DNA of 37,576 bases. Origin: Candidatus Servula neotermitis (lineage in GTDB: Bacteria > Actinomycetota > Actinomycetes > Actinomycetales > Bifidobacteriaceae). Below the pieces are notes generated by a model, which was not told the DNA's origin, did no database searches, and saw only the letters and a program-made list of their open reading frames with translations. Of this stretch, positions 6,685 to 33,952 are shown in pieces. Both the position numbers and the translations under genes were made by a program. Within the stretch, counting starts at the first letter, position 1. Each line of letters starts with the position of its first letter. The DNA is taken from positions 1 through 37,576 of the forward strand of contig JAITFB010000061.1 in NCBI GenBank assembly GCA_031281695.1. The letters are read 5' to 3'.

Positions 6685-6711
6685 GTCTCATGGCATTGAA
6701 CGTCATTGTGA

Positions 6712-6870: not shown

Positions 6871-6917
6871 TGTCACTAGTTCAAAAGATTCACTGTAATT
6901 TTTGGAATTTATAATCA

Positions 6918-6955: not shown

Positions 6956-7000
6956 GAAATTTGAATGAACTCTTGCGGCTCAATCGGGTATTTCGCAATA

Positions 7001-8780: not shown

Positions 8781-9064
8781 ATATTATTAGGTTATACAAG
8801 GTAGTTGGTTAAGCCAAGTAGAATTTCAATATTATTATGAATTCTTCATGCGAAGTCGTTTTGGCGTAAGTAAATTCAATTCGCAATTAATAGTTAACAG
8901 TCCACAATCGGTGATTTTATCTGTCATAGCGTTAACGCATATATTTTGGATTTAGTACTGTTACGGAATCAAATCATCTACCTGAAATGATAATTCTCAG
9001 TCCTCAAAATCTAATGTAATTATTGATTATCAATTGATAACTATAAATTGGAAGCGCTGGCTAG

Positions 9065-9556: not shown

Positions 9557-9607
9557 ATTTTATTCCAATTATTAGTTTAATCATTTTTTGAACAATTGAC
9601 ATAATCT

Positions 9608-10252
9608 GTGACTCGATTTTTAGGTAAAATTTCATATATGGCTATGATTTTTTATCATCAATTCCAGCCTAGAGATTTGACTGAAAGCAATCTGAATAGT
9701 TTGATTCATAAATTACCCGATTTTCGAAAACGTCAAGCTCAACAGTATTATTTCTCGGAAGATACTTGGCTTTCGGTGACTGGTTTTTTATTATTAGCTT
9801 TTGCTTTAGGATATGTGCCGGAATCCTTTTCGTATAATCAATATGGAAAACCTGAATTAGAAGGAGTCTGTTTTAATATTAGTCACACAGCGGGATCGGC
9901 TTGCGTTTTGATCGATTCGCAGATGTGCGGCGTGGATATTGAAAAATTTACCAAGACTCCGCCGTGGGAGATTATGCCGCAAGTTTTTACGCGTGGAGAA
10001 ATTTCTTGGATTGGGCGAGAGCCGTTGAAATTTTGGGAAGTTTGGACAAGTAAAGAGAGTTGGGTCAAATTCTGGGGTAAGGGATTGTCGTTTCCGATAC
10101 CTCTCAATGAATGCAGCGTGAGCGGTTATCCTATCCAGACTTTTATGCTCAAAGAGCATTTGATTTCAGCATGTTTGATGCTCAGGCGTGGTCAAAGTGT
10201 TTCCGATATTCAGCTTCAATCTGTTTCATTTGACCAACTTATGTCTATTTAA
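9608..10252 (+). CDS. Sfp-type 4'-phosphopantetheinyl transferase
   Basis: 'FNISHTAGSACVLIDSQMCGVDIEKF' and 'FWEVWTSKESWVKFWGKGLSFP' match the Sfp/AcpT motifs (GVDIE; WTxKEsxxKxxGkGL). Start uncertain: GTG 9608, ATG 9638 or ATG 9644. Confidence 0.9.
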   Translation: MTRFLGKISYMAMIFYHQFQPRDLTESNLNSLIHKLPDFRKRQAQQYYFSEDTWLSVTGFLLLAFALGYVPESFSYNQYGKPELEGVCFNISHTAGSACVLIDSQMCGVDIEKFTKTPPWEIMPQVFTRGEISWIGREPLKFWEVWTSKESWVKFWGKGLSFPIPLNECSVSGYPIQTFMLKEHLISACLMLRRGQSVSDIQLQSVSFDQLMSI

Positions 10253-10271
10253 TTTGTTTTTGAAAGTTTTC

Positions 10272-10301
10272 TTGAGGCCGATTTTTAAGCTAAGCTATAA
10301 T
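10272..10301 (+). promoter_or_regulatory. Candidate sigma70-type promoter for the NRPS gene
   Basis: TTGAGG (10272-10277) - 18 nt - TATAAT (10296-10301), ending 13 nt before the ATG at 10315. Confidence 0.5.
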
Positions 10302-10314
10302 CAAGCGAATAAAA

Positions 10315-13300
10315 ATGGGTCAGAGTCTAATGAGCGGTTCTAACAGTCGAACGGTTCTCGAGCAATTTATATATAATGTTGAACGCGATCCTGAGCGACC
10401 TATTCTTTATTTTGGGGAAACTCCGATTAGCATGGGTCAAATTGAAGAATTGTCTAACAAAATCGCGACCTACTTAGAAAAGAAATTGTTAGCTACCGAT
10501 CAAATTATTCCCATTCAGCTAGATAAGAGCGCTGAAGCGGTCGCGGCCATAATGGCTATATGGAAACTCGGAAAGGCTTATTCATATCATGACTTAGAAG
10601 CGCCAGCTGACAAAGTCGAATTTGTGCGTAAACAGCTCAATGCTTCGTTAGTGATTAACGCGGATATCATTCAACAAGTTGGTTCGATTGAGCCAAAAAT
10701 TTATCGTCCCGAGTTGAATCCGACTTCGATTGCCTGCGTACTTTACACTTCGGGAACGACATCAGATCCTAAAGGAGTGGTCTTGACTCACCAAAATCTT
10801 TTATTAGAAGTCCAAGACGTCGATTTGATTTATCAAAATTATCAAAACATATTGTGTATAGCTCCTTTTTCCTTTATCGCAGGTCAACTGATGCTTTTTT
10901 TGGCTTTGTATTACGCTAAGCCTACTTTAATTCCACCCACGGTTACAGACCCAGGGGCACTTTTAGGTTATATTAAAACTCATAACATTGAAGCCGGTTT
11001 CTTGCCACCGCAGTTAGCGGGCATGTTTTTGCAATTTGCCGATGGGTTGATGAAAATTGTTTTGATGTCGAGTGATAAAGCTGATAATATTGTTGCTTAT
11101 CGATCCGATCTTTATAATTGTTACGCTGCGACCGAAACCACTGCGGTTTCGACGTATTTCAAAGTCGACCGAGCCTATCCTTCGACTCCAGTTGGTCGAA
11201 CTTTCGAGCATTATCGCATTTATTTAGTTAATGATGAATTTCAATCAATCACAGAGCCTGATGTAATGGGTGAAATTTTGATTGCTGGAAATGTAGCTTC
11301 GGGGTATTATAAAAATCCAGAGTTGACGCGCGAAAGATTTATATCCAACCCCTTTTCGCAAGATTTGGGTTTTGAACGAGCTTTTTTAACTGGAGATGTG
11401 GGCTATTTTGACCAAAATGGCGATTTAGTATATGTTCAGCGCAAAGATTTTATGTTTAATGTCCATGGTCGAAGAGTGGAACCGACTGAAATTGAAGAAG
11501 CCTTGAAAAATATTGACTATGTAAAAGATGCTGTTGTTGCGCCGTTTGATATTTCAGATAAAACTGGAATCGCTAACGATTTAGCCATCTACGCTGGTAT
11601 TGTGACCGATCAAAGCAGTATCGATGAACCGACGATTAAACAAGAAGCTGCGCAATATTTGAAGCCTTACATGATTCCAGCTGTATTTCAAAAAATCGAT
11701 AAAGTACCTTTAAATGATCGCGGGAAACTCGATCGAAATGCCATTTTGCCCGCAGACGTCGAACATTTAGGTGAAGAAAAACATGAACAGGTTTTGCCTC
11801 AAACTATGAGCGAATTACAGGTTTTAGGTATTGTAGCTGAACTGATTCAAAAACCTAATATATCAGTTACTGAAGATTTGACACACTTTGGACTGAACTC
11901 GATCTCGGCTATGACTTTATCGGCTCAAATTTTAGAAAAAACTCATAAAGATCTAAAAATCACCGACTTGATTCAAGATCCGACTATTAGGAATATCGCC
12001 GCTCTGATTGATCAGTCACCTAAAGTTGAAACCCAAACTTATCCCAAACTCGATCAATATTTACTCAAAGACAATCAATTGTCAATTTATTTCGATTTAT
12101 TACAACATCCTGAGTCGAATGCTTACAACATACCTTTTACAATTCAAAGCGATCAGCCTGAAGTGGCCCTGGAGGCTGTTCGACAGGCTATTAATTATCA
12201 CAACTATTTGAAAGCAACGGTCAAAGCCCAAGAGGATGGAGTTTATTTGGTGCGTCATGATTCCGCCGAAGTGGTAGTTGAAAATTTAGATCAACCTTAC
12301 GCTCCAATTGCTTTTGATCTGGGTCAACGGCTTTATCGGGTGGCACTATATCAAAATACGATTTATTTGGATTTTTCGCATTTAGTTTTTGATGGAGCAA
12401 GCGTAGATATTTTCGCTCAAACTTATGAAACTGTTTTGCACGGTCAAGTTCTTCCTCCAGCTCCTGATGAATTTATTACTCATTTGATTGAAGAAGGGGA
12501 AAACGACCAAGATTATTACGATCTTCAATTAAGTTCAGTCGATCAGCCCTCGATTTTACGCACTGATCGTCAGCTCCAAAATCATAACAGTCAACGTCAA
12601 TTTATCAAGCTTCCTAAAGCTTCAGTTGGAAAAGCTAGGAATTATAATAATTATTTTATGCAGGCTTTATTGGAGTCCTTGAAACTGTTTACGGCTTATG
12701 ATGGTTCAGATCATCTTCTAATTTCCAGTTCCATTCAAAACCGAGATAATCGTACGCTAAATCATTTGGGTATGTTTGTTAAAACTTTACCTTTGGCATT
12801 GCCAAAGAACTTTTTCAACACTGCTGACAGTCATTTTACGGATTCTAATCAAAACACTAACCCTCTTAAGTCCGATTCTATTGCTGAAAATGCAACTGAT
12901 AGCTCCATTATAGAGGACGCAGCGGTTGGACTAATGAATCATCCTTTTTATTCGTTGGCTCAAATGACCAAGTCGAAAGGTTTTATCCCGCAAATTAATT
13001 ATACATTTAGAGGCGCGTTAATTGATCATGGTGCAGCGATTCAACCGATTTTAGAGTATAAAAATTATCCTCAATTTCCTGTTTCGGTTGAGATTGATGA
13101 CGATTTGAATAATTTTTATATTACAGTTGAGTATGATTCTGCTTGGTACCGAGAAACTACCATTAAGTCCTGGGTAGATAATTTTACAGCACTTATAAAA
13201 AAACCTTATTTGCCGATTGCGCCAGTTCCAGAATATCAACCGATTCTAAAAAAAAACTTAATTGAGCTTTTCGAAGAACAAGTCCAAAAAACTCCTGATA

Positions 13301-16300
13301 TTGTCGCGTTAGTCTGCCAAGGGGTTCGCTTTACTTATGTGGAATTAAACGAACGCGCTAATCAGCTTGCAAATTATTTAACTTCCTTGCATCGTATTCA
13401 TCCTAATGATAAAATTGTTTTGCTCTTACCGCGCGACGAAAATATGGTTATTGCGATGCTGGCTGCATTCAAAACCAACGCTGCTTATGTTCCAGTGGCG
13501 ATTGATGTTCCTCCTAAACGTTTAGAGCGGATTTTGCAAGATACTCAGCCAGTTTGCATTCTAACTTCCAGCGCAGTCAATTACCCATTGTTGATCAATC
13601 AAAATGATAATCAACCAACGCCTAATTCTCAATTCATAGCTGCAAAAGTTTATAATTTGGATCAACTGGATCTTTCTTCTTGTTCAAAAGATTCTCCGCT
13701 TAGATCAGTTGGGGTTGATGATTTGGCTTACATAATTTATACTTCTGGAACGACCGGCACCCCTAAAGGTGTGATGCTCAGGCATTGGGGGGTGGTCAAT
13801 ACGATTTTAGATCAAATCCAGCGTTATAACTTGGTGAACGTGACTGGTCGAGGCGCTTTGGCATATGCTCAATACGTTTTTGATGCTTCAGTTTCGGAAA
13901 TTTTTTGCGCTTTACTGTCTGGAAACACTTTGCATGTAATTGATGATGATATTCGCTTAGACTACGTTAAATTGAGTCAATACATTCGCGAGCAAGCAAT
14001 TTATTTGGCTACCATACCCCCTGCTTTATTGGAACATAATGACATCTTGGCTTTAAATACGTTGGTTGTGGCCGGAGAAAGCGCCAGCCAAAATGTAATT
14101 GACCTTTATACAAAGTCTGCAGTGCGTTTAGTCAACGGTTATGGTCCTACGGAAGTGTCAATCTGCGCGACTACGCATACTTACCTCCCAGGAGATTTAG
14201 CTACTATTATCGGCCAGCCTCTGGCTAATACTCAAATTTACTTACTGGATGAAAATTTACAACCAGTTCCTCCTGGCGCGGCGGGGGAATTATATGTTTC
14301 AGGGTTGGGGTTGGCTTTAGGATATTTGAATAACCCTGAACTGACCAGCCAAAGTTTTATCCCTAACCCTTTTTATGATCGCATCCGAGATGATTCTTGT
14401 TTTGAGACCATGTATCGCACTGGAGATTTGGCTTTGCGTCTGGCTAACGGAAATTTTCAATATTTGTCTAGGATTGACGACCAAGTTAAAATTCGCGGAT
14501 TTCGGATCGAACTGTCCGAAATCTCTAAAGTATTAGAGCAATTTCCTTCCATCCAACAAGCTGTGGTGATTGCTCAAGATCAGCGTTTATTGGCGTATTA
14601 TGTTGCTGACATCACTGATGCGTTGACCAGGGTAACTGCCAGCATGACCAGTGCTGGCAGTTCAATTGGCGTCATCTCTTCCGAGAGTGACTCAGTTATC
14701 AATACGGGTATTGACGCTAAAGCGCATTTGGACGAATTGGATCATCAAAAACTGATCGAGCACTTGAAGAAATACTTACCAGACTATATGATTCCAACGT
14801 CCTTCCAGCGCATTGATCGAATTCCTTTAACCAGTAGCGGTAAGATAAATATTTCAGCTCTTCCCTCTATTAGTTTGGTCCAAAAGGTCTATCAAGCTCC
14901 GCGAACTGAAGTCGAGCAAAATTTACAAACTGCCTTTCAATCGGTCTTGGGCGTTGCGCAAGTTTCGATTGATGACGATTTCTTTTATTTAGGCGGAGAT
15001 TCAATCAAAGCCATTCAATTAGTCAATTATTTGACCAGTCATTTTAATTATCACCTCAAAGCCGCGGAAATTTTCAAATCCAAAACCATAGTTGAGTTGT
15101 CTCATTTAGTAAAACTTGAAGATCGGACTGAAATTGTCCAAGAAAACGGAGAACTCAACGGTGAGATTCCGAAACTTCCTATTCAGTCGCACTTTTTTGA
15201 GCTAAATTATCCTAACTCAAATTATTTTAATCAAGCTTTTATGGTTCAACTTACTGCTGACTTGGATTTAGAACTGCTTAAACAATCTTTATTGCATTTA
15301 TTCAACCAACATGATATTCTTCGAGCAATTTATCCCAAGTCAATTGGTCAATATCAGCCCTATTTAGAAAATATTGCCTTGAATATTTTGACACCGGTTA
15401 CACCAGATTCCACCATTTATCGTTTGAGCCCTGCTTATACGCCTAATCATTTTGGATCCAGCGCCGACCGTCGAGAGTCAACCGATCCTTTTGACTCGCC
15501 CGCATGGGATTTACATGAATATTTGGACGATGTACAAGCTCATTTTGATTTGGCAACCAGCTTATACTCCATCACCTTGATCCAAAATGATCCGCCATTA
15601 TTGCATTTTGCTTTCCACCATCTAGTTATCGACGCAGTGTCTTGGCGGATTTTGGTTTCCGATTTGAATACAATTTATCAGCAATTGAGACAAGGCCAAC
15701 CAGTGGAATTACCAGCTAAACTGACATCTTATCGACAATGGGCTGAATCGGTTGTTGATTATTCTGTTTACGCGAGCCAAATCGAATTAGAACATTTCGA
15801 TCAAATTAATCAGAAGGTGCTAACTTATAACGAGTCGCTCCAAACCATGAAACGCTCGAGTAGAGCTGAAAAATGTACTATATTGCTCGATCGAGAAATT
15901 AGCTCGAAATTGATGCATAGAAATGATGTCAACGCTGTTTTAATCACGGCTTTGGCGTGGCCTTTAGCGAAAATTACTAACAGTGAAACCAATTATTTAG
16001 CATTTGAGTCACATGGGCGAGCCGAATTGCCTGGGACTAATGTGACTAATACTGTGGGCTGGTTTACTGCCGAATATCCTTTGTCGCTTCATAAAACCAC
16101 AACTATCTTAGGTTCATATTTGAATTTAGTCGATCAATTGAATCAAGTTCAAAATTTTGGAATTGCTTATGGAGCGAAATATGGGTACGCGCATTTACCG
16201 AAGATTACTTTCAATTACTTAGGCGATCTATCTAGCTCTTTAGAACAATCGGATCAATTTCATTTAGTTAATCATTATGTTGGTAAAACAGTAGGCGACA

Positions 16301-25300: not shown

Positions 25301-28300
25301 ATTTAGGAAAAGATGCTCAACTAAACCAAGATATACCTTTTGAAGTTATCGTTGAGCGACTAAATGTTTCCAGGGATACTTCACGCAATCCCATCGTTGA
25401 ACATTTATTTACTTATCAAACTTTTGGAGAGAATTCTAAAGTACTTCAAAATGTTTTGACGCCTATTCAAGATGCTTCTCATAGGATCGCTAAGTTCGAC
25501 TTAGAGATGTTTATTTCCGACAGCGAGAGCGAATCGCTGAGTTGTCATTTGAATTATGCTAAAGCATTATTTAGACCCGAAACGATTCAAAGATTTGCTC
25601 AAACTTATCAATTTATTTTGACTGAACTGTTAGAGCATTTAGATTTAAAAATTTCTGACTTGAAGTACCCATTGTCGGTTCCAGCGGCTAAATATTCTAC
25701 TTTACCCAGTGGTTCAGTTGCCGATTTATTTGAGGCTCAAGTTGAAAAAACTCCGGATAATATCGCTTTAGTTTATGAAAGCCTTAAGTTAAGTTATCGC
25801 GATTTGAATAATCGAGTTAATCGTTTAGCCAATTTTCTATGCGAGCGCCACCATATCCGACCAAATGATAAAATCGTGTTACTTTTGCCGCGTAATGAAA
25901 ATATGTTGATTGCTATTTTAGCTACTCTGAAAACTAACGCTGCTTATATTCCATTGGCTCCGGACATCCCTCCGAAACGCTTAAAGCGAATTCTTCAAGA
26001 TGTTCGACCTGTTTGCATTCTCTCATCCAGTAAGCCAAATTATCAATCGTTAGACTCTCCAGTTTATGATTTAGATCAACTTGATTTGAATTCTTATCCA
26101 GTAACAGCTCCTATACGACGCGTGACTCAAGAAGATTTAGCTTACTTAATCTTCACTTCAGGAACGACTGGTGAACCTAAAGGAGTCATGATTAAACAAG
26201 CTGGCTTGGTCAATTTAGCTACTTCAATTTATGGTAAACATGGTTTAAAGGATATCCAAACTGATATAGTTTTGTTCTTAACTAATTACACTTTCGATGC
26301 TTCTGTCGCTCAAATTTTCCCAGCCCTTTTGAACGGCAAAAAGCTGGTCATAACACGCGATGATTTATATAAAGACCAAACTGAATTCGAAAATTACCTA
26401 AATTCAAATCAAATCACTTATATGCATACGACTCCTTCATTGGCTTCCAATATCAATTTGGATCATATACCCAGTTTGAAAGTTTTGATTTTAGGAGGCG
26501 AAGCCATTACGGAATCTGTATTAGAAAAATTATCGCATCGGAAATACGAACTGATCAATTTTTATGGCCCTTCGGAAAACACTGAAATGACTTGTTCATA
26601 TACTTATCAATTACATGACCAACCGGCTATTATTGGATCGCCGATTTCTAATTGTCAAGTTTATGTAGTTGACCAAAATTTGAATCTGGTTCCTTCCGGA
26701 GCCATTGGCGAGCTTTGCGTATCGGGGATAGGGTTGTCTTTAGGTTATTTGAACCAACCCGCATTAACTCAAGAGAAATTTATTGATAATCCTTTTTATA
26801 ATCCAGCTACTGACCACTCATGTTACGCCCGGCTTTATCGAACTGGCGATTTAGTTCGCAAAATGCTTGATGGGAATTTACAATATTTGGGACGAATTGA
26901 CGATCAAGTAAAATTGCGCGGGTTTAGAATCGAGTTAGGTGAAATCTCAAGAGATATTGAAAGGATCCATTCAGTGCATCAAGCGGTCACTGCAATCAAG
27001 GATCAACAATTAGTCGCCTACTACGTTGGGGACGAAAAGCTGGAGCAAAATTATATTGAGCGACATTTAGCAAAATATCTGCCTGAGTATATGATTCCTA
27101 TTCATTATGAACGTATTGCGCAAATTCCAGTTACAAGTCATGGAAAATTGGATGTTCGAGCATTGCCTGATGTGAAAATTGACCATCTGGGTTACGTAGC
27201 TCCGAAAGACCCTATTCAAAAAGATTTGCAAGAAGCGTTTCAAGCTATTTTGAATGTTCAACCTGTTTCTACTTTAGATGACTTTTTCTATTTGGGGGGA
27301 GATTCGATTAAGGCGATCCAAGTTGCGAATTATATCAACAATCATTTTGGGTATGTTCTAAAAGTTATGGATATTTTTACTTATAAAAATATTTACAATT
27401 TATCCAAAGCGGTAAAACTTTCCGGGACTCAAGATGTCGAAAAAGAAACTGGTGAATTAGCAGGGGAACTGCCTTTATTGCCGATTCAAACCTCTTTCTA
27501 CGATCGAAATTTTCCAGCTCCTAATTATTTCAATCAAGCTTTTACTATCCAATTGAAATCCCGCGTTAATCATAATTTATTAGAACAAGCTTTAGTTTAT
27601 CTATTTAATCATCACGATATTTTGCGTGCCACTTTCGCTGATCAAAAAGCCCAATATCACCCATATTTGAATAGTGTCCCTTTGAATATTCTGACTCCTC
27701 GAACCGGAGATTTGAGCGGCTATAGTTTTAGTTCAATTGAGGGTATGGAAAACGGACGGCCAATCAAACATCACCATTTGCCGGTTGATGATTTGCATGA
27801 GTTTTTAGACAATGTCCAATCCAACTTTGATTTGTCTAAAAATTTATTTGCCCTGACACTAATTGAAGGAGATCGACCGCGTTTACATTTGGCTTTTCAC
27901 CATATGATTATTGATGCCGTTTCTTGGCGGATTATTGCCAACGATTTGGGCGATATTTACGAACAATTGGAAAAGCATCATAAAGTTCGATTGAGCGAAA
28001 AACAGACCTCTTACCGACAATGGGTTGAAGCAGTTATGGATTATTCAAAATATGCTCGCGATGAAGAATTACAAAAGTTTGAATTAATCAACCAAAAGCT
28101 CCCTGAATATAATCAACATTTAGAGAGTTTGAGCTCTGATCGGCTAAACACCAAAGATCAAAAAGCGAATGCTTCTTCCTCTGAAGGTCCCATTTTGCGA
28201 AAAATCATTGATTTAGATACAAGGACCACTCAAAAATTATTGCATCAAACCAACCTAAATTCTACTTTGATTGCGGCTTTAGCTGGTCCTTTATCCGAGG

Positions 28301-31300
28301 CCACGGGACGATCGACTAATTATGTAACTTTCGAATCGCATGGTCGCGCTGAACTTCAACGAACTAATATTGCAAATACCGTGGGTTGGTTTACTGCGAA
28401 ATACCCACTTATGCTGGAAAAACAGAACAGTGCTTGGGCGACCAGTTTGCACGTAAAATCCCAAACTGATCAAATTCGAAATTTCGGGATTGCTTACGGC
28501 GCGAAGTTCGGCTACAACAATTTACCCAAAATCGTTTTTAATTATTTAGGAGACTTATCTTTTGGTCAAGCCGAACCAACTGGTTTTCATATTGTAAATG
28601 CGTATAATGGTAAACAGATCGATGAGCGTAATTTGACCCATGATTTAATGTCGATCAATGGGGCTGTTTTGGATAATAAATTACAATTTGAAGTGGCAAC
28701 GTTATTGCCTTCCAAAATTGCTCAGAGCTTTTTCCGAAGTTTTAGAAAATCCTTAATCGAAACTATCAATGCTGTGGCTAAAATTGACGATTTGTATATT
28801 CAAGCTAATCCTCTTCAAATGGGATTTTTAAGCCATTCTCTTCTACAAGGTCAAATAGACGATGCCTATAATATCACTTTAGCTTTCGACTACAATCGAG
28901 CTATTGACCGAAAAGCCTACGAACAAGCTTGGGGTCTAGCTCAACAAAAGTTTCCAGCTTTGCGGCTTAATCTTGAGGTAATCGCTGGCGAAATCTATCA
29001 AAGTATTCACTCTAAATCCCATTTGGATTTTCAATATATTGATTTTACTTCCAAGTCGAACCTAACGTCAAATGACTCTCTTCAATCTTCAAATACTTCG
29101 AGCGTAGTTTTGACTAAAACTCAAATTGATCAAAAAATTCAAGATATTATTCTCCAGGATCGAAAACGTCCTTATAACCTGAGCAAAGATATTTTATTTA
29201 GAGTGTATTTGATCAAACGCGGGCTTGACCAATATACTGTCATAGTCTCCCACCATCATGCGATTTTGGACGGCTGGTCGAATCCTATCTTGTTAGGGTT
29301 CGTTAACTTGGCCTATCAAGATATTTTGGCTGGGCGTTCGGTTGAGGTCAATCCAGATCAAGCCTATATTTCAGCGCAAGAATATATAGCTCAAAATCCT
29401 TCGTCTTTGGAGTTTTGGTCCAAGTATTTGGACGGTTTTGAATCGAATGAGAGTTATCAAGCGCTATTGAAGCCGGACCAACAAAATGTGAATTTATTGG
29501 AGTACCGATTGATCCAACAATCTTCAGATCGGACCATTCATATTGACGGAGTTTTATATCAAGACATTATGAATTATTGCGAAAAACATTCCGTTACTTT
29601 GAGTACTGTTTTACAATATGTGACGCATTTACTGATGAAGACGTACTACAATACTACCGAGACAGCTTTAGGAGTGGTTCATTCGGGCCGCCATCTTCCG
29701 ATTGCGCAAATTGACCAAAGTGTGGGATTGTTTATCAATACCTCTCCTCAAATTGTTCATCATCAACTTGATCAATCGATTGAAGCGGCTTTAGTTGATT
29801 TACAAAATAATACACAAGAAATCATTCGCCATTCCCTAATTCCGCTATCTAAAATCCAGTCCGGAGCTCAAAGATTGTTTTCGACTTTATTTGTTTTTGA
29901 AAATTATCCGATCGCTAAGAGTGCTCAAACTTGGTCTGACTTGAGTTTACGCGCATCTATTGAGAAGTTGGATTATCCTCTCTCTATCAGCACTGCAAAG
30001 GGCGATGATATTACTTACACGATTAAATACGCTCATGAATTATTCTCCGACGAGACTATCGATAGCTTGCTGAATTTCGTTCAGCACACTTTGTCTCAAA
30101 TCGTAACCCAAACTTTAGTAAAGGATATTCAATACCGAGATGATGTCATAGCCCTTGAGTATCATCCCATTCCTCAAAAAACCTTGATTGATTTATTTGA
30201 AGACCAAGTTCAAAAAACCCCTGATGTTCTAGCCTTGGTCTTTGGGGACATTCATTTCACTTACCAAGAATTAGACGAACGCGCTAATCAGTTGGCTAGT
30301 TATTTGATTGCTGAGCATCATATTCAGCCTAATGATAAAATTGTCTTGCTTTTACCACGTGACGAAAAGATGGTTATTGCTATGTTGGCTGCTTTCAAAA
30401 CTAATGCCGCTTATGTCCCTGTCGCAATTGATGCCCCGCCTAAACGATTAGAGCGAATTATTCAAGACACTCAACCTATCTGTATTCTAACTTCCAGTAC
30501 AGTTAATCATTTCTCATCAATTTATCCAGGCGACGAACGGACATCGGAAGCTAATAAAGTAGATATTTCTAACCTAGACCAGGCTTCCAATCAGCTCAGC
30601 CTGAACTCTCAATTCTGGTCTACTAAAATATACAACTTAGATCAATTAGATCTTTCGGAGTATCCTCGCGATTCCTTAGTCAGATTGGTCGATCCAGATG
30701 ATTTAGCTTACATAATTTATACTTCAGGAACGACTGGCACTCCTAAAGGTGTGATGCTTAGGCATTTAGGTGTGGTTAATGCGATTTTGGATCAAATTCA
30801 ACGTTACAACTTAGCGAATGTGAGCGGCCAGGGGGCTTTGGCTTATGCTCAATACGTTTTCGACGCTTCGGTTTCGGAGATTTTTTGCGCTTTATTGTCT
30901 GGGAACACTTTGCATGTGATTGACGATGATATTCGCTTAGACTACGCTAAATTGAGTCAATATATTCGTGAGCAACAAATTTATTTAGCCACTATACCTC
31001 CAGCTTTATTGGAGCATAATGACATTTTAGCTTTGAATACTTTGGTCGTGGCTGGAGAAGTTACCAGTCAAAACGTAATTGATCTTTATACAAAATCTCC
31101 AGTGCGATTAATTAATGGATACGGCCCTACTGAAGTTTCGATTTGCGCGACCACGCATGCTTATCGACCCAATGATTTAGCCACTGTTATTGGCCGACCT
31201 CTTTTTAACACTCAAATTTATTTATTGAATGAAAGTTTGCAACAGGTTCCTGTGGGAGCGGCTGGAGAAATATATGTTTCTGGCTTAGGTTTGGCTTTAG

Positions 31301-32874
31301 GATATTTAAACAACCCCCAGCTGACTAGTCAAAGTTTTCTCCCTAACCCTTTTTACGATAGCGCTCGGGATAACGCTTGCTTCAAAACGATGTATCGCAC
31401 CGGAGATTTAGCTCTGCAGTTGCCTAATGGAGATTTTCGATATCTCTCACGAGTGGATGATCAAGTCAAAATTCGAGGTTTTAGAATTGAATTGTCCGAA
31501 ATCTCTAAAGTGTTAGAGCAATTTCCCTCTATTCAACAAGCTGTGGTCATAGCTCGAGATGAGCGTTTATTGGCCTATTATGTGACTAAAGACTCCGATT
31601 CATCAGCCAATATTGATCCCCAAGACTTGCCCGATTCTAGTAGCATTAAGCCTAGTAACGATATTGTTAGCACCGCCAATATTGCGACTCAAACTGTCGA
31701 AGGCACTGGCACTGTTGCTGACCCAGAGCTCAATACCCAAGTTCATTCGGATGAACTAAAACCGCAAGAACTCACAGAATATTTGAAAAAATATTTGCCA
31801 GATTATATGATTCCAGCGGCATACCAACGCATCGATCGAATCCCTTTGACTAGCAGTGGCAAAATAAATATACCAGCTCTGCCTCCAATGGTTTTGACTC
31901 AAAGAGTTTACCGTGCTCCAAAAACTGAGGTTGAACAAAATTTGCAAATTGCTTTCCAATCTGTTTTAGGCGTCGAGCGGGTTTCGACCGACGATGATTT
32001 CTTTTATCTGGGCGGAGATTCGATTAAGGCCATTCAATTAGTCAATTATTTGACCAGCCATTATGACTATAGCTTGAAAGTCTTGGACGTATTTACTAAT
32101 AAAACCATTGTCGCATTAGCAAAATTAGCTCAGTCCGGAGCTTCATATTTGCGTTGCCTCAACCCTGGAAATAAGGAAATTACGCCATTGATTTTGTTCC
32201 CGCCAACTGGGGGGTCAGCCGAAGCTTATTTAGAATTCGCTAAAGTTTTGGATCAGAGCATTCCACTATATGCTTTGGAAAATTATAACTTGCTTAATTT
32301 GGATCACCCCATAGTCAACTTAGAGGAATTAGCTCAAGTTTACGTTGAGGATCTTAAACCTTTATTAAATGAACATTCAACAGTTTCTTTAGGCGGCTGG
32401 TCTTTCGGTGGAGTGGTCGCTATGGAGGTTTATCGAAAGATTCGCTCTAGTATAAAAGTTGAACAATTAATCATGATTGACAGTTTCATTTTCCCAGAAG
32501 TTCGAGCCACTGAGCAAAATCGAGAAAAACGTCTGAAAGATTTAACGGAACGGCCTGATTTACGTTTGCGTTTTGGGCATTTATCGCAGGCCGAACAAAT
32601 GCAAAAACTGCAAGAATTTTTACGTGAATCTGACCTGACCGATCAAATTATGGACGCATATGAGCCGACTCAATTGGACCATGGTATTATGTTGATCAAA
32701 TCTAATTTGACTGATCCAACTAATCGTTATCCTTTTAATGGCTTTGAGAAAATTGTCGCGAAAATTGACGAACGGCGAGTCAATTATGAACATAATTTTT
32801 TGATGATTGATCCTCAGGCTATTCAAGAGATTGCTGTTTTAGTTCAAGAAGTCACATTTAATTTTCATTCCTAA
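10315..32874 (+). CDS. Six-module nonribosomal peptide synthetase (A-T-C-A-T-E-C-A-T-E-C-A-T-C-A-T-E-C-A-T-TE)
   Basis: Single 7519-aa ORF with repeated A-domain cores (YTSGTTGxPKG, YGPTE, YRTGD, VKIRGFRIEL, GKLDR), five 'FFYLGGDSIKAIQ' plus one 'FGLNSISAM' carrier motifs, five condensation HHxxxDG-type motifs, three E-type 'HHxxIDxVSWRI' motifs and a C-terminal thioesterase 'GGWSFGG'. Confidence 0.97.
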   Translation: MGQSLMSGSNSRTVLEQFIYNVERDPERPILYFGETPISMGQIEELSNKIATYLEKKLLATDQIIPIQLDKSAEAVAAIMAIWKLGKAYSYHDLEAPADKVEFVRKQLNASLVINADIIQQVGSIEPKIYRPELNPTSIACVLYTSGTTSDPKGVVLTHQNLLLEVQDVDLIYQNYQNILCIAPFSFIAGQLMLFLALYYAKPTLIPPTVTDPGALLGYIKTHNIEAGFLPPQLAGMFLQFADGLMKIVLMSSDKADNIVAYRSDLYNCYAATETTAVSTYFKVDRAYPSTPVGRTFEHYRIYLVNDEFQSITEPDVMGEILIAGNVASGYYKNPELTRERFISNPFSQDLGFERAFLTGDVGYFDQNGDLVYVQRKDFMFNVHGRRVEPTEIEEALKNIDYVKDAVVAPFDISDKTGIANDLAIYAGIVTDQSSIDEPTIKQEAAQYLKPYMIPAVFQKIDKVPLNDRGKLDRNAILPADVEHLGEEKHEQVLPQTMSELQVLGIVAELIQKPNISVTEDLTHFGLNSISAMTLSAQILEKTHKDLKITDLIQDPTIRNIAALIDQSPKVETQTYPKLDQYLLKDNQLSIYFDLLQHPESNAYNIPFTIQSDQPEVALEAVRQAINYHNYLKATVKAQEDGVYLVRHDSAEVVVENLDQPYAPIAFDLGQRLYRVALYQNTIYLDFSHLVFDGASVDIFAQTYETVLHGQVLPPAPDEFITHLIEEGENDQDYYDLQLSSVDQPSILRTDRQLQNHNSQRQFIKLPKASVGKARNYNNYFMQALLESLKLFTAYDGSDHLLISSSIQNRDNRTLNHLGMFVKTLPLALPKNFFNTADSHFTDSNQNTNPLKSDSIAENATDSSIIEDAAVGLMNHPFYSLAQMTKSKGFIPQINYTFRGALIDHGAAIQPILEYKNYPQFPVSVEIDDDLNNFYITVEYDSAWYRETTIKSWVDNFTALIKKPYLPIAPVPEYQPILKKNLIELFEEQVQKTPDIVALVCQGVRFTYVELNERANQLANYLTSLHRIHPNDKIVLLLPRDENMVIAMLAAFKTNAAYVPVAIDVPPKRLERILQDTQPVCILTSSAVNYPLLINQNDNQPTPNSQFIAAKVYNLDQLDLSSCSKDSPLRSVGVDDLAYIIYTSGTTGTPKGVMLRHWGVVNTILDQIQRYNLVNVTGRGALAYAQYVFDASVSEIFCALLSGNTLHVIDDDIRLDYVKLSQYIREQAIYLATIPPALLEHNDILALNTLVVAGESASQNVIDLYTKSAVRLVNGYGPTEVSICATTHTYLPGDLATIIGQPLANTQIYLLDENLQPVPPGAAGELYVSGLGLALGYLNNPELTSQSFIPNPFYDRIRDDSCFETMYRTGDLALRLANGNFQYLSRIDDQVKIRGFRIELSEISKVLEQFPSIQQAVVIAQDQRLLAYYVADITDALTRVTASMTSAGSSIGVISSESDSVINTGIDAKAHLDELDHQKLIEHLKKYLPDYMIPTSFQRIDRIPLTSSGKINISALPSISLVQKVYQAPRTEVEQNLQTAFQSVLGVAQVSIDDDFFYLGGDSIKAIQLVNYLTSHFNYHLKAAEIFKSKTIVELSHLVKLEDRTEIVQENGELNGEIPKLPIQSHFFELNYPNSNYFNQAFMVQLTADLDLELLKQSLLHLFNQHDILRAIYPKSIGQYQPYLENIALNILTPVTPDSTIYRLSPAYTPNHFGSSADRRESTDPFDSPAWDLHEYLDDVQAHFDLATSLYSITLIQNDPPLLHFAFHHLVIDAVSWRILVSDLNTIYQQLRQGQPVELPAKLTSYRQWAESVVDYSVYASQIELEHFDQINQKVLTYNESLQTMKRSSRAEKCTILLDREISSKLMHRNDVNAVLITALAWPLAKITNSETNYLAFESHGRAELPGTNVTNTVGWFTAEYPLSLHKTTTILGSYLNLVDQLNQVQNFGIAYGAKYGYAHLPKITFNYLGDLSSSLEQSDQFHLVNHYVGKTVGDNNLSTDLIILNGAMVDHQLEFQIETRLDAAQSQTFAQDFQKSLGETIDFVSSMSDIYVKASPLQTGFLTHSLTQGEHDDAYNITVAFDHHVAIDRAVYQKAWRLAQKKYPALRLNLELVDGQIYQKIPRQSNLDFRYLDLTQPDSSSSTPVNGSVDGVEDRIRSIIQADRQEPYDLTKDVLFRVYLLKRSEREFTTILSSHHAILDGWSNSVLLAFVNDAYRKLLSGQAVDTSEDVAYLETEQYLATHPSSQAFWDEYLSDFEVDENYQALLRPEQQSVNLLEYKLIKKSQDRSIHIGGALYEQLQDFSKQHAITMGTVLQYATHQMLKVYYHASSTSLGIVHSGRNWPIDHLDQSVGLFINTSPQIFDHQVDLSILDALTKLQNQTQKLIEHSIIPLAQIQKRSERLFSTLFVFENYPIDQQLRNDPDLTFRTTIEKLDYPITVVTSVGEDISFTIKYAQELFLETKIDQLLAFIPRVLQEIITKTQISQIEYIDTVPQLQYTEIPNQTLVDLFEQQVERSPDRSALIFNGRILTYRELNQRVNQLANFLIDHHKIQPNDKIVLVLPRSEWMIIGILATLKTNAAYIPLATDIPQKRLEHILHEVKPVCLLTSSALADNPIISSLNSKTSIIDNSENANSEINDPTLDSSKPNPHTTHRQSSIPNVYSIDQINISNYAKSSPARSVSPDDLAYIIFTSGTTGVPKGVMLRHIGAVNTTNYLHKLYNLPDEAVSLFLAAYTFDDSVKEIFTALLYGRTLLVTEEQMFKDMERFYQYLIKHQVALINATPSFLELLDISRLTNLQVIDTDGEGFTQVLLDDLVRDSLTLINTYGPTENTVTSTSYIYTSKNEFPNLIGSGIQNCQTYILDEYLHQVPLGAIGELYLAGVGLASGYLNNPDQNAQKFITNPFYVDGKDPPCYARLYRTGDLVMQLDDGVLRYLSRTDGQVKIRGFRIELQEISHVLEQFPSIQQAVVIARDEHLLAYYVTHPVESDSPLSAAGSDSSTSTSNDSSAAIDVNPAESSIVHVAKNDAAGADSGMPDYELDHQQLSEFLKKYLPDYMIPAYYKRLDKMPITKNGKLDRKALPDIMIEPEVYVAPADQFQTNLQSAFQEILNVSPVSVADDFFYLGGDSIKAIQLVNYLMTHYGYGLKVSDIFTYKNIVNLSKQVSLANRADVIHETGELVGDIPLLPIQKDFFEKDYPNPNYYNQAFTIQLPADLNQALLEKALVEVFNHHDILRASYVNQSGKYRPYLKTVPMNILTPDPNNLKHYKVYVAQTNHRQSNGDRPSMVDSASLPLSQALDELQSHFDLAKRLYSLTLIQDSPALLHLAFHHLIIDSVSWRIITTDLNTVYQQLLRGEIVQLEEKMTSYRQWVELVEDYPKYATDEELENFENLNSKLPEYNQYLTDKFTTSEPAIEPIESRIEIPSDLTQKLLRLSNVNDILITALAAPLAKVTGREMNYLTFESHGRAELTNSDITNLVGWLTAMYPVQLQVDPNSLDTFLYTKNQLDQIRNFGIAYGAKYGYADLPAIIFNYLGDLSSTNVDNSQFHLINHYNGKPVDARNLTQDWLTINGAILDGQLKFDVLSRFGPQLTKLFAEGFRESLISTIESRAADLDLYIKANPLQIGFLSHSLLQGKIDDAYNITNALDYNYAIERDAYEKAWNFAQAKYPALRLNIQVISGEIYQRIRNSSHLDFHYIDFSQEADIDQCIQELIDSDRHQPYDLEHDVLFRVYLIKRSAQRYTTVISNHHSILDGWSNPILFSFVDQAYRSILEGKSVDTTEDRAYILAQEYLALNPSPRNFWERYLEGVTINENYQAILRENKISTNLLEYKFIEKPQNKSIHIQGELFDRVSTFIEQHSLTWGTLLQYVTHLMMKVYYNTSTTALGLVHSGRHLPIDDIAQSVGLYINTSPQILQHRGNQSVLDTLQTLQNDTQALIEHSNIPLSSIQKQGERLFSTLFVFENYPFDESLKEDPGLTFRESIEKLDYPISVIASQDEGIVYQIKYASELFSDQSIDQLLQFVQNILGEVISKRMVSEIQYRSDLPATVYETIGELTLPDLFEKQVQQTPGHPAVVFENVHLTYADLDYKANQLANFLVEKHKIQPNDKIVLILPRSEWTIISILAVLKTNAAYVPIAPDIPPKRLEHILQDVQPVCILTSTMVTDLEQLLANQVKESDNESVSDQPIPNNFARNIYMLEKLDLTNYLRTAPTRKVVQDDLAYLIYTSGTTGEPKAVQLRHQGVVNFAMVLFKKHELSPVQTKNVLFLSNYTFDASIAQIFPALLSGSKLVVTKDDLYKDQVEFERYLNYNRINYMHTTPALATSLNLNHLKHLQILVLGGEPVTDAVLAKLANRKFQLFNLYGPTENTEMTCSHPYQPGDSPNLIGTPVRNVQTYVLDENLNRLPVGAIGELYISGASLARGYLNQPKLSEAKFIDNPYFQPGIDHSWFSKMYRTGDLVRELDDLGLQYISRIDDQVKLRGFRIELEEISSVIEKLPQIKHAAVIVKSNQLIAYFEASQPIKDVQIQEHLTKYVPDYMIPKYYQQLDKLPLSDHGKLDRRALPEIELDQSEYVPPQNAVERNLQNAFQEILRIEQISIQDDFFYLGGDSIKAIQLVNYITRHYNYNLKVLDIFTRKNIANLAKIVFSNEHEFKVTPYHFKSVQEQVLSFAQERLFIVDQIADQTSAYDIPIVSKIVQGANLSALKQAILDIIQRHEVLSSRIVQDPDGRVYQAKLDEPFIIEEVNSDRPKQVIAQYSNYVFDLFNSYPIKVVIVNQQYLVITIHHIAFDGWSENIFIDELAKLYQYYSGSNLISSNSNRSVAISNSSMDLDQAKLDFSIPSDYPLPALEVQYKDYAVRQRQYLQGQIFDDQLGFWITQLQDFENLNLPTDFKRPVQKSYEGGVFDFEISVDQAQKVKDLAKSLDISVYDVLLSAYYLFLRAYSNQSDITVGSVFANRHYQNVDKMIGFFVNTLALRMQVDPQLTLIEFTKTVSDLGKDAQLNQDIPFEVIVERLNVSRDTSRNPIVEHLFTYQTFGENSKVLQNVLTPIQDASHRIAKFDLEMFISDSESESLSCHLNYAKALFRPETIQRFAQTYQFILTELLEHLDLKISDLKYPLSVPAAKYSTLPSGSVADLFEAQVEKTPDNIALVYESLKLSYRDLNNRVNRLANFLCERHHIRPNDKIVLLLPRNENMLIAILATLKTNAAYIPLAPDIPPKRLKRILQDVRPVCILSSSKPNYQSLDSPVYDLDQLDLNSYPVTAPIRRVTQEDLAYLIFTSGTTGEPKGVMIKQAGLVNLATSIYGKHGLKDIQTDIVLFLTNYTFDASVAQIFPALLNGKKLVITRDDLYKDQTEFENYLNSNQITYMHTTPSLASNINLDHIPSLKVLILGGEAITESVLEKLSHRKYELINFYGPSENTEMTCSYTYQLHDQPAIIGSPISNCQVYVVDQNLNLVPSGAIGELCVSGIGLSLGYLNQPALTQEKFIDNPFYNPATDHSCYARLYRTGDLVRKMLDGNLQYLGRIDDQVKLRGFRIELGEISRDIERIHSVHQAVTAIKDQQLVAYYVGDEKLEQNYIERHLAKYLPEYMIPIHYERIAQIPVTSHGKLDVRALPDVKIDHLGYVAPKDPIQKDLQEAFQAILNVQPVSTLDDFFYLGGDSIKAIQVANYINNHFGYVLKVMDIFTYKNIYNLSKAVKLSGTQDVEKETGELAGELPLLPIQTSFYDRNFPAPNYFNQAFTIQLKSRVNHNLLEQALVYLFNHHDILRATFADQKAQYHPYLNSVPLNILTPRTGDLSGYSFSSIEGMENGRPIKHHHLPVDDLHEFLDNVQSNFDLSKNLFALTLIEGDRPRLHLAFHHMIIDAVSWRIIANDLGDIYEQLEKHHKVRLSEKQTSYRQWVEAVMDYSKYARDEELQKFELINQKLPEYNQHLESLSSDRLNTKDQKANASSSEGPILRKIIDLDTRTTQKLLHQTNLNSTLIAALAGPLSEATGRSTNYVTFESHGRAELQRTNIANTVGWFTAKYPLMLEKQNSAWATSLHVKSQTDQIRNFGIAYGAKFGYNNLPKIVFNYLGDLSFGQAEPTGFHIVNAYNGKQIDERNLTHDLMSINGAVLDNKLQFEVATLLPSKIAQSFFRSFRKSLIETINAVAKIDDLYIQANPLQMGFLSHSLLQGQIDDAYNITLAFDYNRAIDRKAYEQAWGLAQQKFPALRLNLEVIAGEIYQSIHSKSHLDFQYIDFTSKSNLTSNDSLQSSNTSSVVLTKTQIDQKIQDIILQDRKRPYNLSKDILFRVYLIKRGLDQYTVIVSHHHAILDGWSNPILLGFVNLAYQDILAGRSVEVNPDQAYISAQEYIAQNPSSLEFWSKYLDGFESNESYQALLKPDQQNVNLLEYRLIQQSSDRTIHIDGVLYQDIMNYCEKHSVTLSTVLQYVTHLLMKTYYNTTETALGVVHSGRHLPIAQIDQSVGLFINTSPQIVHHQLDQSIEAALVDLQNNTQEIIRHSLIPLSKIQSGAQRLFSTLFVFENYPIAKSAQTWSDLSLRASIEKLDYPLSISTAKGDDITYTIKYAHELFSDETIDSLLNFVQHTLSQIVTQTLVKDIQYRDDVIALEYHPIPQKTLIDLFEDQVQKTPDVLALVFGDIHFTYQELDERANQLASYLIAEHHIQPNDKIVLLLPRDEKMVIAMLAAFKTNAAYVPVAIDAPPKRLERIIQDTQPICILTSSTVNHFSSIYPGDERTSEANKVDISNLDQASNQLSLNSQFWSTKIYNLDQLDLSEYPRDSLVRLVDPDDLAYIIYTSGTTGTPKGVMLRHLGVVNAILDQIQRYNLANVSGQGALAYAQYVFDASVSEIFCALLSGNTLHVIDDDIRLDYAKLSQYIREQQIYLATIPPALLEHNDILALNTLVVAGEVTSQNVIDLYTKSPVRLINGYGPTEVSICATTHAYRPNDLATVIGRPLFNTQIYLLNESLQQVPVGAAGEIYVSGLGLALGYLNNPQLTSQSFLPNPFYDSARDNACFKTMYRTGDLALQLPNGDFRYLSRVDDQVKIRGFRIELSEISKVLEQFPSIQQAVVIARDERLLAYYVTKDSDSSANIDPQDLPDSSSIKPSNDIVSTANIATQTVEGTGTVADPELNTQVHSDELKPQELTEYLKKYLPDYMIPAAYQRIDRIPLTSSGKINIPALPPMVLTQRVYRAPKTEVEQNLQIAFQSVLGVERVSTDDDFFYLGGDSIKAIQLVNYLTSHYDYSLKVLDVFTNKTIVALAKLAQSGASYLRCLNPGNKEITPLILFPPTGGSAEAYLEFAKVLDQSIPLYALENYNLLNLDHPIVNLEELAQVYVEDLKPLLNEHSTVSLGGWSFGGVVAMEVYRKIRSSIKVEQLIMIDSFIFPEVRATEQNREKRLKDLTERPDLRLRFGHLSQAEQMQKLQEFLRESDLTDQIMDAYEPTQLDHGIMLIKSNLTDPTNRYPFNGFEKIVAKIDERRVNYEHNFLMIDPQAIQEIAVLVQEVTFNFHS
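10345..12012 (+). other. NRPS loading module: A1 (about 10345-11750) - T1 (about 11806-12012)
   Basis: A1: 'LYTSGTTSDPKGVVLTH', 'FLTGDVGYFDQNGDLVYVQRKDF', 'DRGKLDRNAI'; T1: 'LTHFGLNSISAMTLSAQIL'. Boundaries approximate. Confidence 0.85.
12037..16452 (+). other. NRPS module 2: C1 (about 12040-13230) - A2 (about 13252-14871) - T2 (about 14890-15110) - E1 (about 15148-16452)
   Basis: C1 'DFSHLVFDGAS'; A2 'IIYTSGTTGTPKGVMLRH'; T2 'FFYLGGDSIKAIQLVNY'; E1 'FHHLVIDAVSWRIL'. Boundaries approximate. Confidence 0.88.
16461..21140 (+). other. NRPS module 3: C2 (about 16461-17755) - A3 (about 17821-19563) - T3 (about 19585-19809) - E2 (about 19840-21140)
   Basis: C2 'SSHHAILDGWSN' (post-E type); A3 'IIFTSGTTGVPKGVMLRH'; T3 'FFYLGGDSIKAIQLVNY'; E2 'FHHLIIDSVSWRII'. 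Confidence 0.88.
21154..24258 (+). other. NRPS module 4: C3 (about 21154-22420) - A4 (about 22480-24015) - T4 (about 24034-24258), no E domain
   Basis: C3 'SNHHSILDGWSN'; A4 'LIYTSGTTGEPKAVQLRH'; T4 'FFYLGGDSIKAIQLVNY'; followed directly by C4. Confidence 0.88.
24295..28770 (+). other. NRPS module 5: C4 (about 24295-25665) - A5 (about 25711-27174) - T5 (about 27193-27417) - E3 (about 27445-28770)
   Basis: C4 'LSFAQERLFIVDQI...IHHIAFDGWSENIFI' (LCL-like start); A5 'LIFTSGTTGEPKGVMIKQ'; T5 'FFYLGGDSIKAIQVANY'; E3 'FHHMIIDAVSWRII'. Confidence 0.88.
28786..32871 (+). other. NRPS module 6: C5 (about 28786-30090) - A6 (about 30175-31890) - T6 (about 31909-32133) - TE (about 32146-32871)
   Basis: C5 'SHHHAILDGWSN'; A6 'IIYTSGTTGTPKGVMLRH'; T6 'FFYLGGDSIKAIQLVNY'; TE 'ILFPPTGGSAEAYLEFAKVL' and 'LGGWSFGGVVAMEVY'. 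Confidence 0.88.
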
Positions 32875-32944
32875 TTTTTTCTTGAACTAGGGATTTTGTT
32901 TCCCCAGAGCTTTTCGATTGTCTAAAATGATGAAGTAGGATCTC

Positions 32945-33952
32945 GTGCACATTGTAACCAAAATCGACCATTATTTAGCCAAGTATATGTCATTGGTTAC
33001 CCCTATCGGCGTGGCGGTCGCAGTTCTATGGCCAGCTGGGTTTTTGTGGCTGACTACTCCAGTCAATTTAGTAAGCCCCGGTTCGGATTGGGAATTTTTC
33101 AACCAACAAATTCAAGTCTATGTATTTATTTTGCTAACACTGCCTGGCTCGCTTACCTTGAAATTCAAAGACTTGCTGGAACCGTTTAGACAACCGAAAC
33201 TTTTGTTGACTTATTTTGCCTTAGCTTCAATTATTATGCCGGCGGTAGCTTTCTTCTCTATGAAACTTTTGTTCCCCGGCGATATCAATACAGCAATCGG
33301 ATTTTTGCTGGTCGCAACTATTCCCTCCGGGGCTTCGTCGTTCATTTGGGTGACTATATCTAAAGGTAATAAAGAGTTTAGTTTAGGCGTCATTTTGATT
33401 ACTAATTTATTGGCAGTCGCCATTATCCCAGCCACTTTACAGATTTTTGTCGGCGAAACTGTGCCCTTTGATATTCCTAAATCCATCTGGCAACTTTGCG
33501 TGATGTTGTTGATTCCGACCTTGATTGGCGTATTTTTGAATGAAATTTCCAACGGCAAAATTCCAGCCAAACTGATTCCCATATTCAGTCCCATCGCTAA
33601 ATTGTCTTTGATTTGGATTGTAGGTGGCTCATCGGCGATCGCTCAATCTAAAGGCCAATTGCTTTGGACTGATCTAAATTTCTATAAGCACATGCTCCTC
33701 TGTTTCATTTTGTGCCTACTCCTATATTTATCAGCCTGGGGCTTGGGTGACTTGTTCAAACAACCCTTAGACATCCGAACTTCTCTATTCTTTAGCCATG
33801 GTTGTAAAAACATCGGCTCAGGATTGATGCTGGCAGCTCAACTGTTCGCCAATTCCCCTGGTGCTTTGGTTCCTTTAGTCGCGACTGGCCTATTTATGCC
33901 AGCGCTCGGCGGCTTGCTGATTAAATTGTTAGCGCGTAAGCATCGGCATTGA
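32945..33952 (+). CDS. Bile acid:sodium symporter (BASS/SBF)-like family permease
   Basis: Multi-TM protein with 'LLVATIPSGASSFIWVTISKGNKEFSLGVILITNLLAVAIIPATL' and 'TSLFFSHGCKNIGSGLMLAAQLF', BASS-like; GTG start 70 bp after the NRPS stop. Confidence 0.7.
   Translation: MHIVTKIDHYLAKYMSLVTPIGVAVAVLWPAGFLWLTTPVNLVSPGSDWEFFNQQIQVYVFILLTLPGSLTLKFKDLLEPFRQPKLLLTYFALASIIMPAVAFFSMKLLFPGDINTAIGFLLVATIPSGASSFIWVTISKGNKEFSLGVILITNLLAVAIIPATLQIFVGETVPFDIPKSIWQLCVMLLIPTLIGVFLNEISNGKIPAKLIPIFSPIAKLSLIWIVGGSSAIAQSKGQLLWTDLNFYKHMLLCFILCLLLYLSAWGLGDLFKQPLDIRTSLFFSHGCKNIGSGLMLAAQLFANSPGALVPLVATGLFMPALGGLLIKLLARKHRH

Follow-up and report, generated by a model that had tools for sequence, protein, structure and literature searches.

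Why should a small actinobacterial genome from a termite gut carry a 22.56-kb non-ribosomal peptide synthetase (NRPS) gene, from where did its parts come, and what would it make? The window analyzed here (37,576 nucleotides) is an entire contig, C94, of a genome of 1.12 Mb in 101 contigs that is 77% complete and the sole genome of its genus in the set examined. Its RpoB is closest to actinobacterial chains, and 16 genera of its family are represented in the genomes examined, several of them by small genomes, in an order whose genomes otherwise measure 2–5 Mb; the host is probably a flagellate-associated termite-gut endosymbiont of the Bifidobacteriaceae. Termite-associated Bifidobacteriaceae comprise Ancillula, Opitulatrix, Nutricula and Servula, of which Servula neotermitis, in a single-species genus, has the type MAG Nm470_bin85 (1.10 Mbp, GC 42.03%) (PMC11707648). 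The host fits this group, most closely S. neotermitis, to which it possibly belongs. Symbionts inside termite flagellates are regarded as exchanging nutrients. For the host clade, an automated antiSMASH search reportedly found no secondary-metabolite clusters (PMC11707648), a result with which contig C94 conflicts if the MAG was in the set searched. We consider it likely that the contig encodes a functional modular NRPS of type I, borne by a reduced, Bifidobacteriaceae-like and probably flagellate-associated genome, its activity being predicted from sequence. The machine is of an ordinary type and a new member of it; it stands in an unexpected host and has an unexpected archaeal link in its loading domain.

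Gene Organization of the Locus

The genes of the locus and its flanks are as follows.

9065..9556, minus strand: inorganic pyrophosphatase (PF00719 7e-56), divergent flanking housekeeping gene
9608..10252, plus strand: Sfp/AcpT-type 4'-phosphopantetheinyl transferase (PPTase), 214 aa (PF01648 1.7e-11; NCBIfam AusB-like 2.7e-16, below cut-off; motifs GVDIE and WTSKESWVKFWGKGL)
10315..32874, plus strand: six-module NRPS, A-T/C-A-T-E/C-A-T-E/C-A-T/C-A-T-E/C-A-T-TE, 7519 aa (ORF, Pfam, NCBIfam, motifs)
32945..33952, plus strand: SBF/BASS-like permease, 335 aa (PF01758 6.4e-20, PF13593 6e-19)
34014..35726, plus strand: DUF885 metallopeptidase-like protein (HEGVPGH), flanking Actinomycetales gene (PF05960 6e-117)

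The ORF listing gave the PPTase, NRPS and permease genes exactly as the original prediction had them, all on the plus strand with gaps of 62 bp and 70 bp. The pyrophosphatase gene lies 51 bp from the PPTase gene in divergent orientation. Downstream, the run of plus-strand genes continues past the permease without a clear break, through the DUF885 peptidase gene to a family-5 solute-binding protein gene (35847 to the contig end). A promoter-like site between the PPTase and NRPS genes was at chance level, and promoter and terminator scans in general were near chance. No RNA family or tRNA was found in the window. The window had also been said to hold no MbtH-like gene, and a signature search found none there or in 451 kb of the other contigs of this genome.

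Domain Architecture of the NRPS

The NRPS is one uninterrupted open frame, as expected of the single-protein assembly line originally proposed. Pfam (AMP-binding, PP-binding, Condensation and Thioesterase domains), NCBIfam and motif scans gave six adenylation (A), six carrier (T), five condensation (C), three epimerization (E) and one thioesterase (TE) domains. Their limits were drawn by hand from motifs, to about ±20 aa; all are on the plus strand.

10315..11784, plus: A1, starter adenylation domain without Asp235, code IALFLSCAVK (PF00501 5e-47; clade with Methanovirga starter A domains)
11797..12039, plus: T1 carrier, GLNSI (PF00550 9e-11)
12040..13314, plus: C2 condensation domain, divergent, SHLVFDG (PF00668 2e-15)
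13315..14874, plus: A2, code DASTVAGICK, aromatic, Tyr/Phe-like (Pfam, code alignment)
14887..15114, plus: T2 carrier (Pfam)
15115..16524, plus: E2 epimerization domain (PF00668, weak TIGR01720; HHLVIDAVSW, ESHGR, NYLG)
16525..17889, plus: C3, DCL-type (55% identical to C4 and C6, 26% to C5)
17890..19569, plus: A3, code DDKNDDTVTK (Pfam, code alignment)
19570..19809, plus: T3 carrier (Pfam)
19810..21174, plus: E3 epimerization domain (HHLIIDSVSW, ESHGR, NYLG)
21175..22554, plus: C4, DCL-type (identity among C domains)
22555..24024, plus: A4, code DAAHVGLEMK (Pfam, code alignment)
24025..24249, plus: T4 carrier, in a module without E (Pfam)
24250..25674, plus: C5, distinct class, LCL-type expected (PF00668 1.4e-84; 22–26% to other C domains)
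25675..27174, plus: A5, code DAAHIGFEMK, same substrate class as A4 (Pfam, code alignment)
27175..27414, plus: T5 carrier (Pfam)
27415..28854, plus: E5 epimerization domain (HHMIIDAVSW, ESHGR, NYLG)
28855..30204, plus: C6, DCL-type (identity among C domains)
30205..31884, plus: A6, code DASTVAGICK, same as A2 (77% identical to A2)
31885..32124, plus: T6 carrier (Pfam)
32125..32871, plus: type I thioesterase, GWSFG, candidate Asp and His (PF00975 2.5e-16)

Catalytic motifs were found in every domain of the predicted order. The A3, A7 and A10 motifs are present in all six A domains, and the carrier serine (GGDSI/GLNSI) in all six T domains. Of the motif HHxxxDG, the second His and the Asp-Gly are retained in each of the five C domains, with SHLVFDG in C2. 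E2, E3 and E5 each carry HHxxxD[AS]xSW, ESHGR and NYLG, and TIGR01720 matches, with scores below its cut-off, were confined to these three domains. Release by a TE, likewise part of the original prediction, agrees with the PF00975 match, the GWSFG motif and the candidate Asp and His. The features of a type I modular NRPS, that is, repeated C-A-T modules in one frame, carrier serines accompanied by a PPTase with Sfp motifs, and a release domain, are thus all found here.

Kinship of the Starter Domain with Archaeal NRPSs

A pattern-based contig scan with A1-T1, an insensitive method, returned one relative, L024, with 36% identity in Ca. Methanovirga aequatorialis Nm470_bin38 (JAITEE010000031.1). 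This genome (G211) has three genes with an A1-type starter. Among 100 relatives of G211, the best A1 matches came from five genomes, G211–G215 (E 1e-94 to 1e-123, 32–44% identity), and the rest gave E 1e-63 or weaker with 25–30% identity. We take G211–G215 to be Methanovirga, a genus with five listed species (PMC10684969) that is intracellular in gut flagellates of lower termites (PMC13135261). The best A1 match in 397 Actinomycetota genomes had E 2e-54 and about 31% identity, and that in 72,556 plasmids was 26% identical over the whole span; these two sets gave generic matches (≤31% identity) and no member of the starter clade. A vertical actinobacterial origin of the starter was unsupported in the 397 genomes. 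Note that these searches spanned Actinomycetota, plasmids and methanogen relatives.

In a 50-row tree of A domains with methanogen, actinobacterial, proteobacterial, bacillota and cyanobacterial rows, A1 of the window fell within the starter clade (support 100/100), the monophyly of which was supported in two trees. This clade takes in all five genomes G211–G215, and its members other than A1 are all from Methanovirga and its nearest relatives. The sister of A1 is the starter domain of L159 from G215 (44% identity, support 100/97), and identity to the archaeal starter A domains as a whole is 34–44%. In an AU test, a tree holding the archaeal rows together without A1 was not rejected (p 0.088), so that the sequence kinship of A1 with the archaeal starter clade is firm within this sampling, and a transfer may have run either way. 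A kinship of the whole NRPS with Methanovirga was also considered, since a methanogen-only tree placed A2–A6 beside Methanovirga A2. This support was lost with wider rows, where plasmid A domains were closer (39%), and we therefore limit the claim of kinship to the starter A domain.

Because A1 shares an ancestor with the Methanovirga starter A domains, the domain would have been passed across domains of life either by one symbiont lineage or by a shared donor. We regard it as an even question whether the two lineages, rather than exchanging it, acquired it separately from a third source that is not sampled, such as a clostridium of the termite gut. Such a donor would suit the 34–44% identity of the starters, which is not recent, the AU result, which does not reject a clade of Methanovirga only, and the likeness of modules 2–6 to generic bacterial NRPSs (up to 39%), which implies that other donors were involved; NRPS genes of M. 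ruminantium have, moreover, been called possibly bacterial in origin (PMC2812497). On the other hand, neither the 397 Actinomycetota genomes nor the plasmid set held a further starter-clade member, and the best tree nests A1 among archaeal rows, paired with L159. A fuller proposal, which we put forward as tentative, is that the archaeon and the genome-reduced bifidobacterial actinobacterium, two unrelated endosymbionts of termite flagellates, exchanged an NRPS loading domain of previously unrecognised type, and that the bacterium bears it on a six-module line built by internal duplication, which makes a capped D-rich pentapeptide that acts in or around the protist. If the loading domain is shared with archaea of that niche, biosynthetic parts would have crossed between domains of life within a single protist habitat.

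PPTase and Permease

The PPTase, proposed to be dedicated to this NRPS, gave the sole PF01648 match in the 77%-complete genome, in keeping with a predicted priming activity. The GTG at 9608 is a doubtful start codon for it, and the ATG at 9638, in the same frame, would serve at least equally well.

The three genes had been described as a self-contained unit. The linkage of PPTase and NRPS is plausible; the place of the permease in the unit is less secure, given that it is only distantly SBF-like, departs from a solved relative at several Na+-site positions and has no linked homologue elsewhere. It belongs to the SBF fold family by its PF01758 match. Against ASBT_NM, phmmer gave 58 bits, with F, S and K in place of N115, E260 and Q264 in an alignment that is uncertain at such low identity. 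We take these three positions to be Na+-site residues of ASBT_NM. Since the permease does not conserve them, its canonical Na+ coupling is doubtful. A single-sequence AlphaFold model (pLDDT 41) was uninformative.

Membership of the permease in the NRPS cluster is possible. We are doubtful, though we would not dismiss the idea, that it serves for export of the product or for uptake of either the carboxylic starter or a precursor of pantothenate. It lies closely downstream of the NRPS on the same strand, and BASS proteins transport pantoate and 2-keto acids (PMC10645422). SBF homologues in the family are only 22–28% identical, and none was found in the termite-clade genomes searched, so that the permease is not a conserved housekeeping neighbour. 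The substitutions at the presumed Na+ site speak against such a role, as does the fact that no linked SBF gene was seen with any relative of the locus; its GC3 (0.47 vs 0.33 in the NRPS) also differs.

Predicted Chemistry and Product

Codes of the A domains were read by alignment to GrsA PheA, using a fragment that was checked against its published code and the LgrA alignment. Both Asp235 and Lys517, as in A domains for alpha-amino acids, are present in A2–A6. A1 has Lys517 and carries Ile at position 235; the Methanovirga relatives read have Leu or Ile there. Asp235 binds the alpha-amino group (PMC11355689), and A domains for keto acids usually have an aliphatic residue in its place (PMC10949194), as A1 does. 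Given the absence of Asp235, A1 probably loads a non-amino carboxylic acid, most likely an alpha-keto acid, with another acyl or aryl acid possible. Known keto-acid-activating depsipeptide modules carry a KR domain; no KR domain was found in A1-T1 by Pfam or by comparison with solved relatives. An AlphaFold model of A1 (pLDDT 76) had the NRPS A fold, nearest to GrsA PheA and LgrA, and serves as confirmation of the fold only.

The chain would therefore probably start with something other than an alpha-amino acid, and its product, originally called a hexapeptide, is better described as a capped pentapeptide, a reading in which the substrate of A1 rests on one pocket position and general rules. 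We think it unlikely that A1 activates an ordinary alpha-amino acid through an unusual pocket to give a true hexapeptide. A1-T1 is otherwise complete, with A3, A7, A8 and A10 motifs and a PP-binding domain, the solved structures closest to it are A domains for amino acids, LgrA among them, and some A domains may tolerate the loss of Asp235; nevertheless, the residue that binds the alpha-amino group is replaced both in A1 and in the archaeal relatives read.

Concerning the residues of the capped pentapeptide, the Tyr code of CepA is DASTVAAVCK and the Phe code of GrsA is DAWTIAAICK (PMC11355689). The code shared by A2 and A6 agrees with the former at 8 of 10 positions and with the latter at 7 of 10, and the substrate is therefore read as aromatic. 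The codes of A3, A4 and A5 were matched with confidence to no known substrate code, but the substrates of A4 and A5 are predicted from their codes to be the same or similar. C3, C4 and C6, each of which follows an E domain, are 55–57% identical to one another, and C5, which follows the module without E, is 22–26% identical to them; because the module upstream of C5 has no E, C5 is expected to be LCL-type. These identities fit DCL and LCL classes and predicted D residues at positions 2, 3 and 5, in agreement with the E-domain motifs of modules 2, 3 and 5 and with the configuration first proposed.

In the assembly that we envisage, the adjacent PPTase would put the phosphopantetheine arm on the six carrier domains, A1 would activate the non-amino carboxylic acid, and T1 would hold the resulting cap, which C2 would couple to the aromatic residue selected by A2. 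Modules 3–5 would contribute three residues and module 6 a second aromatic one through A6, the sister copy of A2. The E domains would invert the residues of their modules, C3, C4 and C6 would accept D-configured donors and C5 an L donor, and the TE would free cap-D-Aro-D-Xaa-L-Yaa-D-Yaa'-L-Aro in linear or cyclic form, a prediction in which stereochemistry and substrate classes alike are deduced from domain sequences. A1-T1 offers a concrete enzyme to test.

Internal Duplication and Maintenance of the NRPS

A2–A6 form one clade in the trees (support 100/100), with identities of 77% between A2 and A6 and 59% between A4 and A5. Between A2 and A6, dN was 0.11 and dS 1.31 (dN/dS about 0.08); other copy pairs had dN of 0.30–0.43 and dS from 1.9 to saturation, with dN/dS of 0.13–0.20 where dS was measurable. 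These values indicate that modules 2–6 grew by internal duplication and that the copies are under strong purifying selection. A2 is 39% identical to plasmid A domains, and modules 2–6 reach 39% with generic bacterial NRPSs. The E-C pair is 31% identical to Photobacterium, the E domains have relatives at 33–34% within one gene of G215, and C2 is weakly similar (23–25%) to Methanovirga. By these similarities the enzyme is a mosaic. Note that the genome is a MAG of 101 contigs, and that internal repeats in a gene of 22 kb may lead to assembly errors.

That the gene is a relic on its way out of an eroding genome is very unlikely: genome reduction and pseudogenes are reported for termite-associated Bifidobacteriaceae (PMC11707648), but 7519 codons run without a stop, all motifs are kept, and dN/dS between the copies is low. 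The NRPS gene is intact and takes up about 2% of the assembled genome. That selection has maintained it in a lineage which reportedly can no longer make most amino acids points to a chemical role beyond nutrition; communication or defence would be a guess.

Authenticity of the Contig

The contig has a GC content of 39%, and 40 sampled contigs of the genome have 41.5%. The pyrophosphatase has its best match in a genus of the same family (g9, 66%) and the DUF885 protein in another (g5, 45%), each followed by Actinomycetales. Tetranucleotide z-scores of the two halves of the contig correlated with those of the genome's own contigs at 0.60 and 0.62 (own-own mean 0.62), and two same-family contigs from other genomes gave 0.16–0.32; the first 9.6 kb alone fitted at 0.40. 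GC3 was 0.334 in the NRPS gene and 0.331 in rpoB. Since the flanking genes, the tetranucleotides and GC3 all agree with the rest of the genome, we regard the contig as genuine. The NRPS gene has genes of the lineage's chromosome on either side and has been there long enough to take on host composition. Misbinning of a contig from another gut bacterium or the methanogen, conceivable in a MAG whose closest named starter relative, M. aequatorialis, is from sample Nm470, a code shared with the Servula type MAG, is highly improbable and was rejected on these three lines of evidence and on GC content (39% vs 28% in the Methanovirga contig L024).

Comparison with Known Systems

The Methanovirga starter NRPSs are L158 (G214, 1896 aa, A1-like-T-C-A-T-TE), L024 (A-T-C-A-T-TE), L118 and L162 (A-T-C), and L117 and L160 (A-T-TE). 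They share with the six-module NRPS the A-T start, the one starter-A clade and the lack of Asp235 in those read, and L158 and L024 also end in a TE. They differ in having one or two modules and no E domain, in their archaeal hosts, in an identity of only 34–44%, and in their neighbours (radical SAM-SPASM, YcaO and nitroreductase genes).

The best solved relatives are LgrA and related Bacillus NRPSs, at about 25–30% identity. They share with the six-module NRPS a modular plan of the A-T/C-A-T-E kind, in which a DCL-type C comes after each E. Compared with LgrA, the latter has no formyl-transferase domain, a different starter pocket and the whole line on one protein. The aureusimine system AusA/AusB likewise combines an NRPS with a PPTase, and the PPTase of the locus scores best to the AusB model, although far below its cut-off (59.7 v 225). 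We take the aureusimine NRPS to have two modules with a reductase, unlike the six-module line ending in a TE.

NRPSs of two same-family genomes, G030 and G013, share with the host the actinobacterial family, a PPTase of the genome's own and a gut NRPS. They differ in their C-A-T-C-A-T-reductase order, with two modules and reductive release, and the G013 gene ends at a contig end. Both are accompanied by STAS/SpoIIE-type regulators and that of G030 also by a MATE exporter, as around M. ruminantium mru0068, and their A domains fall in other clades of the 50-row tree than those of the NRPS.

Additional Observations

In G030 (contig C29, 1111–13053; L025), genes for STAS, a C-A-T-C-A-T-reductase NRPS (2518 aa), a MATE exporter, a SpoIIE-type phosphatase with HATPase and a PPTase are lined up, a set that comes close to the one surrounding mru0068 of Methanobrevibacter ruminantium (PMC2812497); it resembles a family of dipeptide-type NRPSs of the gut, here in an actinobacterium of the termite clade. 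In G013, an NRPS of the same kind (A-T-C-A-T-reductase) lies at the end of one contig (C13; L026), and another contig (C43; L027) carries STAS, SpoIIE-type phosphatase and PPTase genes.

Among the archaeal loci, the starter-type A-T-TE proteins L117 (G211, 7016–10771) and L160 (G214, 6290–10049) each have a radical SAM-SPASM gene directly before them, a two-gene set in archaea that was matched to no known system. L158 (908–9955) follows nitroreductase and YcaO genes and is possibly part of a heterocycle-forming archaeal cluster. In L159 (2064–4105), the starter A domain is truncated, and next to it lies a transposase-like ORF on the other strand.

Upstream in the window, positions 2–3252 encode two tandem, related multi-pass membrane proteins with no match in Pfam, NCBIfam or PADLOC. 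Positions 3309–5316 encode a RhuM-family protein (PADLOC PDC-S05, 9e-139) and, after it, a DNA methyltransferase (MTase_II 1.5e-136), possibly a defence or mobile stretch, within the first 9.6 kb of lower tetranucleotide fit. On the minus strand, positions 7001–8780 encode a PadR regulator and a HAAS/DUF4097 (LiaG-like) membrane protein, a Bacillota-style envelope-stress set in an actinobacterium.
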